From contig NZ_QMIG01000003.1 of assembly GCF_003287285.1 (NCBI RefSeq), positions 186,001 to 250,000 on the forward strand: a stretch of 64,000 nt of DNA. The letters run 5' to 3'. Positions 52,144-59,161 of this stretch are shown here, piece by piece. The position numbers and the translations under genes were made by a program. The notes beneath the pieces were generated by a model. It saw only the letters and a list, made by a program, of their open reading frames with translations, did no database searches and had not been told where the DNA came from. Origin of the DNA: Phytoactinopolyspora halophila (GTDB lineage Bacteria > Actinomycetota > Actinomycetes > Jiangellales > Jiangellaceae). Each line of letters begins with the position of its first letter. Position 1 is the first letter of the stretch.

Positions 52144-52169
52144 ACTTTGGCATACTAATGACCCAAAGT
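52144..52169. promoter_or_regulatory. 26-bp palindromic operator upstream of the PTS operon
   Basis: Outer half-sites ACTTTGG (52144-52150) and CCAAAGT (52163-52169) flank CATACTAATGAC. It lies about 80 bp before the IIA start and includes a -10-like TACTAAT. A closely related 26-bp palindrome lies at 56687-56712. The rest of the 345-bp gap 51903-52248 shows no gene. Confidence 0.6.
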
Positions 52170-52248
52170 GGGCCCTGAGAGGCTAAGCTTCGCTCTCACG
52201 GACCGCTGCTCACCATCGCACCCGCATCTGGACGCAGAGGAGTTGCCC

Positions 52249-52701
52249 GTGAGCGTGAACTTGGCCGACGAACTGACGTCCATCGTCACGCGGGCCACGG
52301 CCGACGACTGGCGCGCCGCCATCACGCTCGCCGGCGACGGGCTAGTGGCCGGCGGCGTCGCCACCGAGGACTACACACGCGAGATGATCGAGACGGTCGA
52401 GGAGCACGGCTCGTATATCGTCATCGCTCCGGGTCTCGCCCTGGCGCACGCCCGCCCCTCACCAGCCGTCCTCAAGACCGGCCTGAGCTGGGTCGGTCTC
52501 GATACGCCCGTGGAATTCGGTCATCCGACCAACGACCCCGTCCGCCTGGTGATCGGTCTTGCCGCGACCGACCACGACGGCCACATCGCCATCATGGCCG
52601 CCTTAGCCCAAGCCCTCGTCGATCCCGTGCGCCGCGAGCGCCTGGCCGACGCCGCCGACGCCGATGAGGTGCGGGCACTGCTCGCCGACGATTCGCACTA
52701 G
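52249..52701 (+). CDS. PTS IIA component, ascorbate/sugar-acid type
   Basis: GTG 52249 follows GAGGAG and gives 150 residues. The domain is the mannitol/ascorbate-type IIA with active-site His67 in APGLALAHARP and GLSWVGLDTPVEFGHP. It passes phosphate from HPr to IIB. It is first in a IIA-IIB-IIC operon, with operator 52144-52169 upstream. Confidence 0.92.
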   Translation: MSVNLADELTSIVTRATADDWRAAITLAGDGLVAGGVATEDYTREMIETVEEHGSYIVIAPGLALAHARPSPAVLKTGLSWVGLDTPVEFGHPTNDPVRLVIGLAATDHDGHIAIMAALAQALVDPVRRERLADAADADEVRALLADDSH

Positions 52702-52753
52702 AACATGGAGCCGGCCGATCGCCGGCCGGACCGGCCACCAGGAGGGAGTTCCA

Positions 52754-53026
52754 ATGAAGATCGTCGCAGTCTGTGGCATGGGGATAGGAACATCTGTCCT
52801 CCTCAAGATGAACACTGAGCAGGCGCTCCAGAGCCTGGGTGTCGACGCCGAGGTCGAGGCGGCCGACATCGGTGTTGCGCGGGGCGCGGCACGAACGGCT
52901 CAGATTGTGCTCACGTCCGCCGAGCTGGCAGACGAGATCGGTGACGTCCCGGCTACGGTCATCGTGGTCGACAGCTTCTTCGACGTCGACGAAATCAGCC
53001 AGAAGCTCCGGGACGCACTCGAGTAA
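52754..53026 (+). CDS. PTS IIB component, ascorbate type
   Basis: The 90-residue protein has the phosphorylated Cys7 in KIVAVCGMGIGTSVLLKM, as in UlaB/SgaB. GGAGGGAG precedes the ATG at 52754. It takes phosphate from IIA and gives it to the sugar crossing IIC. Confidence 0.95.
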   Translation: MKIVAVCGMGIGTSVLLKMNTEQALQSLGVDAEVEAADIGVARGAARTAQIVLTSAELADEIGDVPATVIVVDSFFDVDEISQKLRDALE

Positions 53027-53073
53027 CACCTCCAGAAACCGACGCCAGACGTCCGAGAACAGGAGGCTCCACG

Positions 53074-54591
53074 ATGGAGTGGCTCGCAGGAATCCTCGAC
53101 TTCATAGGCCAGCAGATATTGAACGTGCCGGCCTATCTCATCGGCATTATCACCGCGGTCGGCCTCATCGCCCTGCGGCGTCCCGTTGGCCAGGTCATCG
53201 GCGGAGGCTTCAAGGCCGCCTTGGGTTTCCTCATCCTCGGCGCCGGTGCGGGAGTCGTGATCGAATCGCTGGATCCGCTCGGTGAACTGATCCTCGCGGT
53301 CACTGGTGCCCAGGGCGTCATCCCCACCAACGAGGTCATCACGGCGATCGCGTCCGAGCAGTACGGAACCACGAGTGCCTACGTACTGGTTCTCGGGTTC
53401 GTCGTCATGCTCCTGCTCGCCCGATTCACCCCATTGAAGTACATCTTTCTCACCGGCCACCACATGGTCTTCATGGCGCTACTGCTCTCCGTGGTGCTCA
53501 CCGTGGGGTTCGGCACAGACCTCGACTGGCTTGTCATCATCATCGGTGCGTTGCTGCTCGGCGTGATCATGGTAGTCATGCCGGCGTTCGCGCACCCGTG
53601 GACCAAGAAGATCACCGGCGACGACACCATCGCCATCGGGCACTTCAGCACCCTCGGCTACATCGCGGCCGGCGCCACCGGGCAAGCCACGGGCCGGCGT
53701 AGCAAGTCGACCGAGGACGTCAACTTCCCGCAGAGCTTGCGCTTCCTGCGCGATTCAATGGTCGCGACTGCCGTCTCCATGGTGCTGATTTACATGGCGT
53801 TTGCCATTTGGGGGCTCGTCTCCCTGTCCGCCGACGAGGCCCTCGGTATTCTCGACTCCGAGAACCGAGGAGCATTCCTCATGGACGCTTTCGCCCAGGC
53901 GTTGCAGTTCGGCGTCGGCGTCGCGATCATCCTCTACGGCGTGCGCACCATCCTGGGCGAGCTCGTCCCGGCGTTCCAGGGAATCGCGGCCAAGGTGGTG
54001 CCCGGCGCCAAGCCTGCCCTAGACATCCCGATCGTGTTCCCGTACGCGGCCAATGCCGTGCTCATCGGCTTCCTGGCGTCGTTCTTGGGCGGTCTGGTGA
54101 GCCTGGCTGTGCTCGCAGCGTGGCTCGAGCCGGCCTTCGGTCTCGCGCTCATCTTGCCCGGCATGGTTCCCCACTTCTTCACGGGAGGCGGCGCCGGTGT
54201 CTACGGCAACGCGACCGGCGGGCGCATCGGCGCCGCACTCGGCGGATTTGTCAACGGCATCCTCATCACCTTCCTACCCGCCGGGCTGCTCGAGGTGTTG
54301 GGCGAACTCGGGGTCGAGAACAGTACGTTCGGTGACACCGACTTCGGCTGGTTCGGCATCATCATCGGCAGCGGACTGCTCGGCAGCACCGCACTCGGAG
54401 TCATCCTGAGCGTGCTCATCGGTCTGGTCCTCCTGGTCGGAGCCTGGATCTTCCAGGTCCGGCTGGTGGAGACCGGATGGGTACCCGGCGTCCGGCGCGA
54501 CGCCTGGCTCGAAGAGCAGAAGGCGGCGGAGGAGCAACCGCGAAGCGAAAACCCGGACTCGGGCATATCCGAGGCCCACACGTCCGAATAG
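53074..54591 (+). CDS. PTS IIC component, ascorbate type (UlaA family)
   Basis: The 505-residue membrane protein has about 11 helices. UlaA features include GGGFKAALGFLILGAGAGVVI, then DDTIAIGHFSTLGYIAAGATG and HFFTGGGAGVYGNATGG. UlaA-type IIC carries L-ascorbate or related sugar acids. No ula-type lactonase, decarboxylase or epimerase genes follow, so the sugar is not known; the nearby transketolase suggests a pentose intermediate. Confidence 0.94.
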   Translation: MEWLAGILDFIGQQILNVPAYLIGIITAVGLIALRRPVGQVIGGGFKAALGFLILGAGAGVVIESLDPLGELILAVTGAQGVIPTNEVITAIASEQYGTTSAYVLVLGFVVMLLLARFTPLKYIFLTGHHMVFMALLLSVVLTVGFGTDLDWLVIIIGALLLGVIMVVMPAFAHPWTKKITGDDTIAIGHFSTLGYIAAGATGQATGRRSKSTEDVNFPQSLRFLRDSMVATAVSMVLIYMAFAIWGLVSLSADEALGILDSENRGAFLMDAFAQALQFGVGVAIILYGVRTILGELVPAFQGIAAKVVPGAKPALDIPIVFPYAANAVLIGFLASFLGGLVSLAVLAAWLEPAFGLALILPGMVPHFFTGGGAGVYGNATGGRIGAALGGFVNGILITFLPAGLLEVLGELGVENSTFGDTDFGWFGIIIGSGLLGSTALGVILSVLIGLVLLVGAWIFQVRLVETGWVPGVRRDAWLEEQKAAEEQPRSENPDSGISEAHTSE

Positions 54592-54598
54592 CCCCGGC

Positions 54599-54640
54599 GT
54601 GCGGTCCTGGCTCACCGGTGCTGGCGAGCCAGCACCGCAC
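54599..54640. terminator. Bidirectional hairpin between PTS IIC and transketolase genes
   Basis: GTGCGGTCCTGGCTC (54599-54613) and GAGCCAGCACCGCAC (54626-54640) form a 15-bp stem with one mismatch and a 12-base loop. It lies between convergent genes and overlaps the transketolase stop codon. No long U-run. Confidence 0.55.
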
Positions 54641-56679
54641 GCGCGGCCGATAGGATGGCATCACGGTGCATGCCGCGCCGGCGCATGACCGAGGGACCGT
54701 CCCCAGACTCGCCGAACTCGTCGACGCTGACCACCTCGCCGTCCCGTCCGGTCCAGCGGTACCAGGCGTCACCTCGTCCGGCCTCGACGGCCACCCGGGC
54801 CGCGAGCCCGGACGGCAGGACCGATTCCATATGCCCGGCGCCGGATTCGAGGAACCATTCCACGCATGGCATCGAGACCACCCGCACGGCCACTCCCTCG
54901 CCCGCGAGGCGGCGTGCCGCCTCGACGGCGAGATGTACCTCGCTGCCCGTGGCAATGATGGCGAGCGCATCACCATCGCGATATTGCCAGGCGACGTACC
55001 CACCGTTGGCCACCCCCGCCGCCACATCGGCGCTCCGGCAGCACCGGAACGTCCTGGCGGGACAGGATGAATGCCGTCGGCCGCTTGGTCTCCGTGTAGA
55101 CACGTCTCCACGCGGCAATAACCTCGGCGGCATCGGCGGGACGCACCACGTCGAGCCCGGGAACCGTGCGCAGCGAGGCGAGCTGCTCGACCGGCTGATG
55201 GGTGGGGCCGTCCTCACCGACGGCCACGGAATCGTGAGTGAACACGTACACGACGGGAAGCCGCATGAGGGCGGCGAGCCGAATGGCAGGACGCATGTAA
55301 TCGCTGAACACCAGATACGTCGATCCGTACGGCCGCCACGGTCCGTGCAGGGCGACGCCATTGAGCATGGCCGCCATGGCGTGCTCACGGACTCCGAAAG
55401 CCACGAACTCGCCACCAGGGTTCATCCGGGAAAAGCGTTTGCCGGCCACGGCCACGTTCGTCGAGCCAGACAGGTCGGCCGACCCGCCCCACAGCCGGCT
55501 ACGTGGTGCCGATGCGTCGTGCATTGCCGAGATGACGGCACCGTTGCTCTTCCGGGTGGCCACGGACGTGCCCGGTTCCGGAACGGCAAGCGAGTCGAGC
55601 ACAGTGCCGCCCGCTCCGTTGCTGTCGCCGTTCACCTCGTCGAGCCTGCCGGCGCGGAACGTGGTCCACTCGGCGACCGCGCACGCATCCCGTGCCGCCC
55701 ATCGGTTGACCGCGGCGCGCCAGTCGGCTTCCAGCCGCGCACCGCGCTCCCGGGCCCGCCGGCCGAAGGCGAGCGCGGGCGCGGTGACAAGCTCGTCGAG
55801 TCCGGCATCGGCCGGGAAGCCGAGCTTCGACTTGACGGCGGCCACCTCATCGTCGCCAAAACCCCCGGCGTGAGCGGCCGGTGTTCCCGAGAACCGCTCC
55901 GATGGCCACCCGATGATGCTGCGGATGGGGACCAGGGTGGGCGCTCCCGTCCGTTCGGCAGCCTTGCCGAGCACGTCCTCGATGTGGTGAATATCGAGCG
56001 GGTCGTCGATCTCCAGGACGCGCCAGCCGTAGGCGCGGTAACGTGACCGCACGTCCTCGGTACACGCCTCGTCTGTGCGGCCGTCGATGGTCACGCGATT
56101 GTCGTCCCAGATCACCACCAGGTTATCTACCCCCAATGTCCCGGCCAGGCTGGCGGCCTCGGCGCTGACGCCTTCTTGCAGGCAGCCATCGCCCGCGACT
56201 GCCCAGATCGTGTGATCGAGCATCCCCGTACCGGAAGCGAACACGGCGGACTCATGCAGGCCAGCCAGGGCCATCCCGACCGCGGAGGCGACGCCCTGGC
56301 CGAGTGGGCCGGTGGTCATCGATACGCCCGGCGCGTGCCCGTACTCGGGATGTCCCGGCGTGCGCGGGTCGAGACCGCGGCTGGCGTCGAGATCCTCGAG
56401 CTCGAGCCCGTAACCGGTGAGATATAGCTGCATGTAGAGCAGGAGGCTGGCGTGCCCCGCCGACAGGACGAAGCGGTCGCGGGCCTCCCAGCGCGGGTTG
56501 GCGGGATTGTGCCGCATGACGCGGTGGAACAGCACGTGGGCGAGCGGGGCGAGGGCCATCGCGGTACCGGCATGCCCATGTCCCTTGTGCTGCACGACGT
56601 GGGCGGGAACGGCGACGGCGGCCGCAATGGCCGCGGCTTCGGCGGGATCGGACGACAGGCGTATGGGGGCTACGCTCAC
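54612..56679 (-). pseudogene. tkt: Transketolase, frameshifted near the C-terminal domain
   Basis: From GTG 56679 the minus strand encodes the TPP domain (GDGCLQEGVSAEAASLAGTL, VIWDDNRVTIDG) and middle domain (FVAFGVREHAMAAMLNGVAL, EDGPTHQPVEQLASLR). The reading frame then runs past DVPVLPERR into an unrelated tail ending at 54970. The correct C-terminal domain continues in another frame (VANGGYVAW, ALAIIATGSEVHLAVEAARR, ending at 54612). The frames part between 55036 and 55013, and a run of five G bases (55013-55017 as C on plus) is the likely slip site. It is divergent from the ROK regulator gene, with a palindromic operator between. As written it lacks its third domain. Confidence 0.85.
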
Positions 56680-56686
56680 GATCGAT

Positions 56687-56712
56687 ACTTTGGTATATAG
56701 ATATACAAAAGT
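56687..56712. promoter_or_regulatory. 26-bp palindromic operator between transketolase and ROK genes
   Basis: Half-sites ACTTTGGTATAT (56687-56698) and ATATACAAAAGT (56701-56712) pair at 11 of 12 positions around AG. It resembles the PTS operator at 52144 (same length, same ends ACTTTGG and AAAGT). It contains TATAGAT, a -10-like sequence, and is very AT-rich for this genome. AGTCAA (56710-56715) gives TTGACT on the minus strand, a -35-like element. Confidence 0.65.
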
Positions 56713-56777: not shown

Positions 56778-57929
56778 ATGGGGCGCGTCCTGGCCACGGG
56801 TTCGGGCGTCGTGCTTGACCTCATCCGATCCGGGCAGGCCACCACGCGGACCGACCTCGTCGACCATCTCGGCTGGTCACGGATCACGCTCTCGCGGCGC
56901 CTGAACGAACTGCTGGACGCCTCGATCATCGTCAGCGCCGGGCAGCTCAGCTCACGCGGTGGACGTCCACCGGAGGAGTTCGCTGTCCACAAGGATGCCG
57001 GCCTTTTGCTCGCGATCGACATCGGCAGCTCGCACACCCGGCTCGGGCTCACCGACCTCGTCTCCACGGTGCTCATCGAGGACGAAGCCGACATCGGGTT
57101 CCCCGAAGGGCCCGAGCGCATCGTCGAATGGGTAACACAGGTCGTCGACTACATGCTCGAGCAGCTCGGTACGACACGAGCCGACGTGCATGGCATCGGC
57201 CTCGGCGTGCCCGCTCCCGTCGACACCGCTACCGGACACATCACCACGCCAGACGTCGAACCAGTCTGGAAGGGCGTCGTCCTCCCGGATCTGTTCACCG
57301 GCGAGTTCCCGGCCGTGTGCGCGGCCGAGCGTGATGTCAATATTATGGCGCTTGCCGAATCCCGGCTGGGATGGCCGGATTATCGCCATCTCGTCGTCCT
57401 CAAGGCCGGAGTCGGGGTGAGCTGCGGGCTCATCCTCGACGGACGTATCTATCGCGGCTGGCAAGGCGGCGCGGGCGAGTTGAGCCGCCCCGCTCCCCCG
57501 GACGGGCGCCAACGCCGCGTGGAGTACGTGGCCAGTGGCGGCACCATCCGCCGGGAACTCCTCAGCCGCGGACACTCTGTGCGCACCAGTGCTGACATCG
57601 TCAGCCTCGCTTCCGCCGGCAACGACGATGCACTCGAGCTCCTCGCCGACGCCGGGTACACCATCGGCGACACCCTGATCGGCGTCGTCGCCGCGCTCAA
57701 CCCGCAGGCGCTGGTGGTCGGCGGCAATCTCGCCGAGGCCGGTGACCCGTTCGTCATCGCCGTGCGCGAAGCGGTGCGCGCGGGCGTACCGGATGTCGCC
57801 GGCGCCGGGCTCGTCGTCGAGCAGGCGCGCCTGGGCGACAAGGCCGGTGTCATCGGCGCCTCACTCATTGCCCAAGACGCGCTCTTCGACCCGGACCGGA
57901 TCAGCCGTATCACTCGCGACGCACGATGA
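56778..57929 (+). CDS. ROK-family transcriptional regulator (sugar-acid/transketolase module)
   Basis: ATG 56778 follows GGAGGTGTTGAGC and gives 383 residues. The winged helix (GQATTRTDLVDHLGWSRITL, SRRLNELLDAS) precedes a ROK domain (LLAIDIGSSHTRLGL, GLGVPAPVDTATG, AERDVNIMALAESR, GVGVSCGLILDGR). The zinc Cys cluster is absent after QGGAGELSR. It is divergent from the transketolase gene, and its likely operator is the palindrome between them. The PTS operon carries the same type of site. Confidence 0.92.
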   Translation: MGRVLATGSGVVLDLIRSGQATTRTDLVDHLGWSRITLSRRLNELLDASIIVSAGQLSSRGGRPPEEFAVHKDAGLLLAIDIGSSHTRLGLTDLVSTVLIEDEADIGFPEGPERIVEWVTQVVDYMLEQLGTTRADVHGIGLGVPAPVDTATGHITTPDVEPVWKGVVLPDLFTGEFPAVCAAERDVNIMALAESRLGWPDYRHLVVLKAGVGVSCGLILDGRIYRGWQGGAGELSRPAPPDGRQRRVEYVASGGTIRRELLSRGHSVRTSADIVSLASAGNDDALELLADAGYTIGDTLIGVVAALNPQALVVGGNLAEAGDPFVIAVREAVRAGVPDVAGAGLVVEQARLGDKAGVIGASLIAQDALFDPDRISRITRDAR

Positions 57930-58056
57930 ACGGTGGAGTACTCACATGATGGTGATCCGCCGATGACGCCTGAGGATCTGAGCGATGGCTCGCCCGACGG
58001 GTTCGCCGTCTTCAGGACTTGCGGAGGCTATCGACTCGATCCGAACCTCGCATGTG

Positions 58057-58130
<74 letters not shown>

Positions 58131-58378: not shown

Positions 58379-59161
58379 ATGGAGAACAACGACGACACCT
58401 ATTCGATTCGTGCTGTGCACCGCGTCTGCGACATCTTCGATCTCATCCAGAAGAGACCCGAGGGCATCACCCTTGGCGCGATCTCGGAACTCCGCGACTT
58501 TCCCAAGAGCACGGGGTATCGCTATCTGGCCAGCCTGGAACAGCGTCGCTATCTCACGCGCGAACCCGGAACCAACGTGTACCGCATGGGGCCGGCGTTC
58601 CTTCCATTGCAGACCAGGCAGATGAAAGTCCTCGCCGATCACCTTCGCCCGCACCTGCTCCGGCTACGCGACTTCTACAACGAGACCCTGAACATTGGAG
58701 CGCTCGACGGCACCCGGATCACCTACGTCGACATTCTCGAAAGTCCCAGCACCGTCCGGCTCGCTGCGCGCCCCGGTGACCGTGATTACGTGCACGCCAC
58801 CGCCCTGGGCAAGGCCATTGCTGCGACACTGCCCGATTCCCGGGTTATGGAGATCCTCGAATCCGACGGCATGCCGAGGCGAACGGCCCGCACCATCACC
58901 ACGCCCGGTGCCTTCTTCACCGAGCTGGAGAAGGTCCGCCAGCAGGGATTCGCCATCGATAACGGTGAAAACGAAGAGCACGGTTGCTGCGTCGCCGTCC
59001 CGCTGCCATATGTGGACCTGCCGGTTGCCGTCAGTCTCGCGGCGCCCTCGTCCCGGGTGGGCGTCGATGAGCTCCCGGGAATCGCCCACACGTTGCGCGA
59101 CTCGATGCGGGTGGCGATGGACGGCGCGCGCGAAGGTGCGGGAGTGGCCGGCGACTCCTGA
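58379..59161 (+). CDS. IclR-family transcriptional regulator
   Basis: The 260-residue protein has a winged helix (AVHRVCDIFDLIQKRPEG, then DFPKSTGYRYLASLEQRRYL) and the IclR effector domain (GDRDYVHATALGKAIAATLP, ENEEHGCCVAVPLPY). AAGGAG lies eight bases before ATG 58379. No catabolic genes are adjacent (the next genes are convergent housekeeping), so its targets are elsewhere or it is an orphan. Confidence 0.92.
   Translation: MENNDDTYSIRAVHRVCDIFDLIQKRPEGITLGAISELRDFPKSTGYRYLASLEQRRYLTREPGTNVYRMGPAFLPLQTRQMKVLADHLRPHLLRLRDFYNETLNIGALDGTRITYVDILESPSTVRLAARPGDRDYVHATALGKAIAATLPDSRVMEILESDGMPRRTARTITTPGAFFTELEKVRQQGFAIDNGENEEHGCCVAVPLPYVDLPVAVSLAAPSSRVGVDELPGIAHTLRDSMRVAMDGAREGAGVAGDS

Follow-up and report, generated by a model that had tools for sequence, protein, structure and literature searches.

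A stretch of 64,000 nucleotides from Phytoactinopolyspora halophila (the window) carries ascorbate-type PTS genes next to a transketolase (tkt) gene and the gene of a ROK-family regulator, with one 26-bp palindrome in front of the PTS genes and another between the transketolase and ROK genes. This arrangement raises the questions of which protein reads the palindromes, how far its regulon extends and what the PTS takes up. The comparisons described here suggest that both palindromes are, very probably, the only two operators of the ROK protein encoded at 56778, which would serve as one local repressor for the module.

Genes and palindromes of the window

The module comprises the following features, in order of position.

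52144-52169, + strand: candidate operator 2, ACTTTGGCATACTAATGACCCAAAGT; 79 bp 5′ of the EIIA start codon; present before EIIA in 12/12 genomes
52249..52701, + strand: EIIA (PTS_EIIA_2), GTG start; PF00359, E 1.1e-26
52754..53026, + strand: EIIB (PTS_IIB), 90 aa; PF02302, E 2.6e-14
53074..54591, + strand: EIIC, ascorbate/galactitol type (EIIC-GAT), 505 aa; PF03611, E 4.9e-126
54612..56679, - strand: transketolase, GTG start at 56679; frameshifted near 55030
56687-56712, no strand assigned: candidate operator 1, ACTTTGGTATATAGATATACAAAAGT; in the divergent tkt/ROK region
56778..57929, + strand: ROK-family regulator with N-terminal helix-turn-helix; PF00480 at residues 78-367, E 1.8e-32

EIIA, EIIB and EIIC of the ascorbate type are all present in the window. 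EIIA matches the L-ascorbate-type IIA model at 9e-28, which is under the cut-off of that model, and the N-terminal loop CGMGIGTS of EIIB can be read directly from the sequence. EIIC lies above the cut-off of NF006919, 'PTS ascorbate transporter subunit IIC' (NCBIfam), and the solved structures nearest to it are E. coli UlaA (4rp8/4rp9) and P. multocida 5zov. The frameshift in the transketolase gene, which the preliminary description had left out, appears as a 2-nt gap in the alignment against the copy of P. limicola, which is an open frame of 690 aa, and the window copy is therefore either a pseudogene or an assembly error in this assembly.

The start of the ROK gene at 56778 had been placed correctly in the preliminary description of this DNA. 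The protein can be aligned with the HTH-type ROK regulator Lmo0178 across residues 11-370, and its nearest solved relatives include the HTH-type ROK proteins Lmo0178, Mlc and XylR; its HTH_20 match (residues 12-52) is weak and under the gathering score. The Cys-rich zinc motif CxCGxxGC is an accessory, non-defining feature of ROK-family transcriptional regulators. It is present in the ROK orthologue of Cryobacterium sp. PH31-O1, and none was found in the ROK sequences of the window, P. limicola, Arthrobacter and the genome G098 discussed below.

About 130 bp past the ROK gene lies a tRNA-Pro (GGG) gene (58056-58130), and a close EIIC was found in only 2 of the 22 genomes searched in the family, so that the module may have come by transfer. 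Beyond the tRNA, an IclR-type regulator gene (58379-59161) apparently has no relation to the module.

The two palindromes had been described as equal in length with the common ends ACTTTGG and AAAGT, and both their positions and their sequences proved exact. The site before EIIA has perfect 7+7 arms and is symmetric at 9 of 13 positions, while the site in the tkt/ROK region, 7 nt from the tkt start codon and 65 bp from the ROK start, is symmetric at 11 of 13. They are indeed AT-rich sites in a high-GC genome, with a G+C content of 38% and 23%, respectively, compared with 68% for the window. Symmetry by itself is common, as the window contains 15 26-mers with perfect 7+7 arms and five 26-mers with at least 11 of 13 symmetric positions. 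The improbable feature is not symmetry but the sequence common to both sites: the window has two occurrences of the ends ACTTTGG-N14-AAAGT, and 100 first-order Markov copies of it have none. When the whole genome (5,039,258 bases) was searched for the pattern ACTTTGGNATANNNATNNNCNAAAGT with up to three mismatches, it matched at both sites and nowhere else, and the reversed pattern, employed as a control, gave one match per strand of the whole genome. Chance scatter of the motif, for which the preliminary description had proposed a genome-wide search, was not seen.

Conservation of the motif and its association with the ROK gene

The contigs of 84,980 species were scanned for ROK loci with three ROK orthologues by means of two peptide patterns, which distant cases can escape. 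The scan yielded 11 loci, from Phytoactinopolyspora limicola, nine Cryobacterium and one Arthrobacter, giving 12 module genomes with the window; nine of these are Cryobacterium and hence not independent. ROK is accompanied by EIIA-EIIB-EIIC in all 12. EIIABC directly follows ROK in 11 genomes and in the window lies beyond tkt from ROK, where it has kept its own putative operator despite this position. In seven genomes the transketolase gene adjoining ROK is intact; that of the window is frameshifted, two Cryobacterium (L066, L068) keep a remnant, and L070 and L072 have none at that place, which indicates that transketolase is dispensable to the unit.

The motif was found at both places in 12/12 module genomes, so that conservation before orthologues in related genomes, which had been named as a check, is borne out. 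Across these 24 sites, positions T4, A11, T16, C20, A23, A24 and G25 are invariant. An inverted repeat near the regulator's own gene and near its presumed targets is also what is seen for ROK-family regulators, and it was present in each of the 12 genomes.

A blind palindromic motif finder was supplied with the 130-150 bp before ROK and before EIIA from six genomes. It returned exactly the 12 operator sites, in 12 of the 12 regions, at a score of 382.0, compared with 135.8 (sd 4.7, maximum 146.4) for 60 shuffled sets. Site-to-site comparison within a genome is too weak as sole support. There, the best pair of 26-mers was the operator pair, in register or with a one-base shift, in 10 of 12 genomes, with a different best pair in P. 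limicola and C. flavum, and in only 3 of 12 did as few as four or fewer of 200 shuffles match the score of the operator pair.

Seventeen of the 24 sites served as training data for a weight matrix, so that its matches at those sites are partly by construction. Seven genomes and then seven more, including P. limicola again and the ROK-only genome G098, were scanned with it; in three scans, 150 candidates each were scored out of 217, 219 and 363 first-look candidates. At E <= 10 each of the 12 module genomes matched only at its two operators, among the candidates scored, which argues for a strictly local regulon of tkt, ROK and EIIABC. Co-regulation of the 'missing catabolic enzymes' of the preliminary description from other loci does not hold, as the weight-matrix sites are these two only. 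The abundance of perfect 7+7 26-mers might be taken to mean that the palindromes arose by chance or reflect a generic AT-rich promoter pattern. This explanation is ruled out by the blind-finder score and by the genome-wide exclusivity of the sites in both the pattern search and the weight-matrix scans, and its probability is negligible.

Loci with only one of the two partners show that the motif tracks ROK, and not the PTS. At 20 loci (L044-L063) where a related EIIC occurs and such a ROK does not, the motif had no match at E <= 1. Another 14 loci have ROKs that are less closely related (33-43% identity), and of these the motif was present at one, that of the closest relative (L109, 43%); the other 13 had no site, and several of them adjoin ABC-transporter-like genes. 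At L109, in the 3.5-Mb genome G098, the site ACTTTAGTCTATCTGTAGACAAAAGC is located just 3′ of the ROK gene and before a zinc-type dehydrogenase gene, and this locus yielded no homologue of EIIA, EIIB, EIIC or transketolase. The site was outside the training set of the weight matrix and is the sole match in the G098 genome among the candidates scored; it thereby uncouples the motif from the PTS genes. The predicted recognition helix reads LGWSR[IM]T in five aligned ROKs with the motif, compared with TG[FL][AT]RAT in three without it. The computed sites, their conservation, the blind finder, the per-genome exclusivity in the scans and the co-occurrence with the ROK gene together uphold the earlier proposal of one operator type for both units, tied to ROK.

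It may be argued that a different transcription factor acts at the sites and that ROK is merely its target, since the ROK gene sits 3′ of one site, ROK binding is only predicted and an IclR-type gene is at hand at 58379. The single site of G098 speaks against this, as it adjoins a ROK of 43% identity with neither PTS nor tkt near. Moreover, when the surroundings of the module in the 11 other genomes were searched with tblastn, 10 had no IclR homologue and one, Cryobacterium Y29, gave a single match (33%). Control by such a factor is considered very unlikely.

Proposed control and the question of substrate

On the tkt side, TTG, the operator, exactly 7 nt and the start codon follow each other in all 10 genomes with tkt or its remnant, and both the TTG and the 7-nt spacing are gone in the two genomes (2/2) without tkt there. 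A tkt promoter TTGACT-17-NAANGT with a leaderless start would fit this spacing, and a repressor bound at the operator would then sit over all of it. In the opposite direction, TATAC[AT] inside the operator may serve ROK, and on the EIIA side in Cryobacterium the right arm with TAGACA, 18 bp before TAGGCT, is a candidate promoter. The -10 hexamers proposed here match TATAAT poorly. An overlap with -10-like sequences had been claimed for both sites; this appears to hold for the tkt/ROK site, which spans the predicted tkt -35 to -10, but the EIIA site seems better placed over a -35.

The preferred mechanism is that a ROK dimer would bind ACTTTGGTnTAnnnnTAnACnAAAGT, one site spanning the divergent tkt and ROK promoters and the other preceding EIIA-EIIB-EIIC. 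In the absence of inducer, ROK would block RNA polymerase at both sites and keep uptake, transketolase and ROK itself off, and a sugar or sugar phosphate in the ROK domain would cause its release from DNA. DNA binding by ROK, repression as the direction of control and the nature of the effector are all predictions from sequence.

NagC-type ROK proteins can both activate and repress, and ROK might accordingly activate, or both activate and repress, at these sites. The location of the tkt/ROK site over the presumed tkt -35 to -10 and the ROK -10 fits steric repression instead, and anything other than a plain repressor is regarded as unlikely.

The uptake of a 'sugar acid', as the preliminary description had it, has become doubtful because several ascorbate-contact residues are changed and UlaE (TIGR00542) was over the cut-off in none of seven genomes. 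Among the Ula catabolic enzymes the search covered UlaE, which was over the cut-off in 1 of 14 control genomes. The ascorbate contacts of E. coli UlaA were taken from PMC6048161, and of the 10 that could be aligned, four are identical in the window EIIC (His135, His194, Asp314 and Phe362), one is conservative (Ile358 to Val) and five are changed. Gln139, Gln195 and Ile136 are replaced by Phe133, Phe191 and His130, and, where the alignment is less certain, Thr86 and Tyr87 by Asn and Glu.

A true L-ascorbate PTS, with the Ula catabolic enzymes encoded elsewhere, would be in line with the NF006919 match, with the four contact residues kept and with the pneumococcal ula2 operon, which likewise combines PTS and transketolase and is ascorbate-induced (PMC4324149). 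Weighing more heavily are the changed residues, the lack of UlaE over the cut-off in the seven genomes and the lack of any operator outside the module, which leaves no Ula gene elsewhere with an operator. Ascorbate is disfavoured as the substrate, and this reading is given only a small chance. A paralogue of EIIC in the same genome (C77, 32% identity), adjoined by a sugar-isomerase-domain gene, was considered as the true ascorbate system and rejected, as it too lacks equivalents of Gln139 and Gln195.

We tentatively favour a PTS that brings in a ketose, perhaps a pentulose, whose phosphate would enter the non-oxidative pentose phosphate pathway via transketolase without a dedicated catabolic enzyme; this is a possibility that falls short of being probable. 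One may speculate further on a self-sufficient PTS-to-transketolase pathway, a proposal that we hold to be doubtful as a whole. An ascorbate-type EII would take up a free ketose, for which the pentuloses D-xylulose and D-ribulose are plausible examples, and deliver a phosphate for immediate use by transketolase or the housekeeping pathway, with no dedicated isomerase, kinase or aldolase; control would lie with a one-repressor, two-operator unit spreading between actinobacterial families.

Housekeeping transketolase and EI are present in all 12 module genomes, which counts in favour of the ketose proposal, as do the Arthrobacter genes described below. The module transketolase has been lost repeatedly, as might be if the housekeeping enzyme could also use the product; simple decay would account for the loss equally well. 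In Arthrobacter sp. H35-MC1 a 944-aa frame right after EIIC (L072:13900-16734) reads as a fusion of transaldolase (4-369) and PTS enzyme I (383-926). Downstream of it, across a gap of about 490 bp, are genes for transketolase and deoxyribose-phosphate aldolase. A literature search found nothing on transaldolase-PTS enzyme I fusions. The second full transketolases of Cryobacterium sp. PH31-O1 and Y29 belong to separate clusters with transaldolase-like and other sugar-phosphate genes, as read from the sequence, and were dismissed as having no relation to the module. The neighbourhoods of related EIICs without ROK (13 of L044-L063 examined) contained no consistent catabolic gene.

The zinc-type dehydrogenase of L109 (6307-7629) is 59% identical to one at L058 (5516-6811), which follows a mannitol-type EII and immediately precedes an EIIABC operon of the ascorbate type. 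These dehydrogenases give a hint of a phosphorylated polyol or ketose as substrate.

Relation to known systems

For an actinobacterial ROK regulator that was uncharacterised, the analysis predicts a concrete operator and a regulon of just PTS and transketolase. An ascorbate-type PTS without ascorbate enzymes suggests a short list of substrates, namely ketoses with phosphates that enter the pentose phosphate pathway directly, and a pentulose PTS, if confirmed, would give free ketopentoses an unusual way into metabolism. A literature search for the combination found in this module gave nothing, with subscription journals largely outside its scope.

The ula2 operon of Streptococcus pneumoniae consists of UlaR2, UlaB2, UlaA2, TktN and TktC and ascorbate raised its expression 2.3- to 3.2-fold on arrays (PMC4324149). 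It resembles the module in placing an ascorbate-type PTS and transketolase in one regulon (here by operator, not expression), and in having a local regulator and no further catabolic genes in the operon. Where the module has ROK and a 26-bp palindrome, ula2 is under an activator of the PRD type whose site is predicted to span 16 bp, and the ula2 transketolase is split in two subunits (TktN/TktC) whereas that of the module is single-chain. Furthermore, ula2 in D39 is one operon without EIIA, and the module here is in two units.

XylR of Paenibacillus polymyxa and other Bacilli is also a ROK repressor with a palindromic operator, and its predicted 25-bp site ACTTAGTTTAAGCAATAGACAAAGT has ends (ACTT...AAAGT) very like those of the module sites (PMC9104551). 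Its targets are xylose isomerase and xylulokinase and, unlike in the module, no PTS or transketolase is named in the part of that report considered. RokB of Streptomyces coelicolor (PMC4856308) is another actinobacterial ROK regulator with a long inverted repeat, its 28-bp site on PnovH being TTTGTTC-11-GAACAAA. It departs from the module in sequence, in genomic sites that are not clear palindromes and in a regulon with links to amino-acid metabolism. CsnR of Streptomyces lividans (PMC3048496) is a ROK repressor as well, with a palindrome that overlaps the transcription start, but it acts on a chitosanase gene, and its targets and inducer differ. The orphan ascorbate-type EII of Corynebacterium glutamicum, cg3365/cg3366 (PMC2222622), shares with the module an actinobacterial host and an unassigned substrate; in contrast to the module, no ROK or transketolase is named with this EII in the part considered, where it was also not found in the SugR regulon. 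XylR and RokB are thus precedents for ROK operators that resemble the module sites in length and ends, as ula2 is for an ascorbate-type PTS joined to a transketolase.
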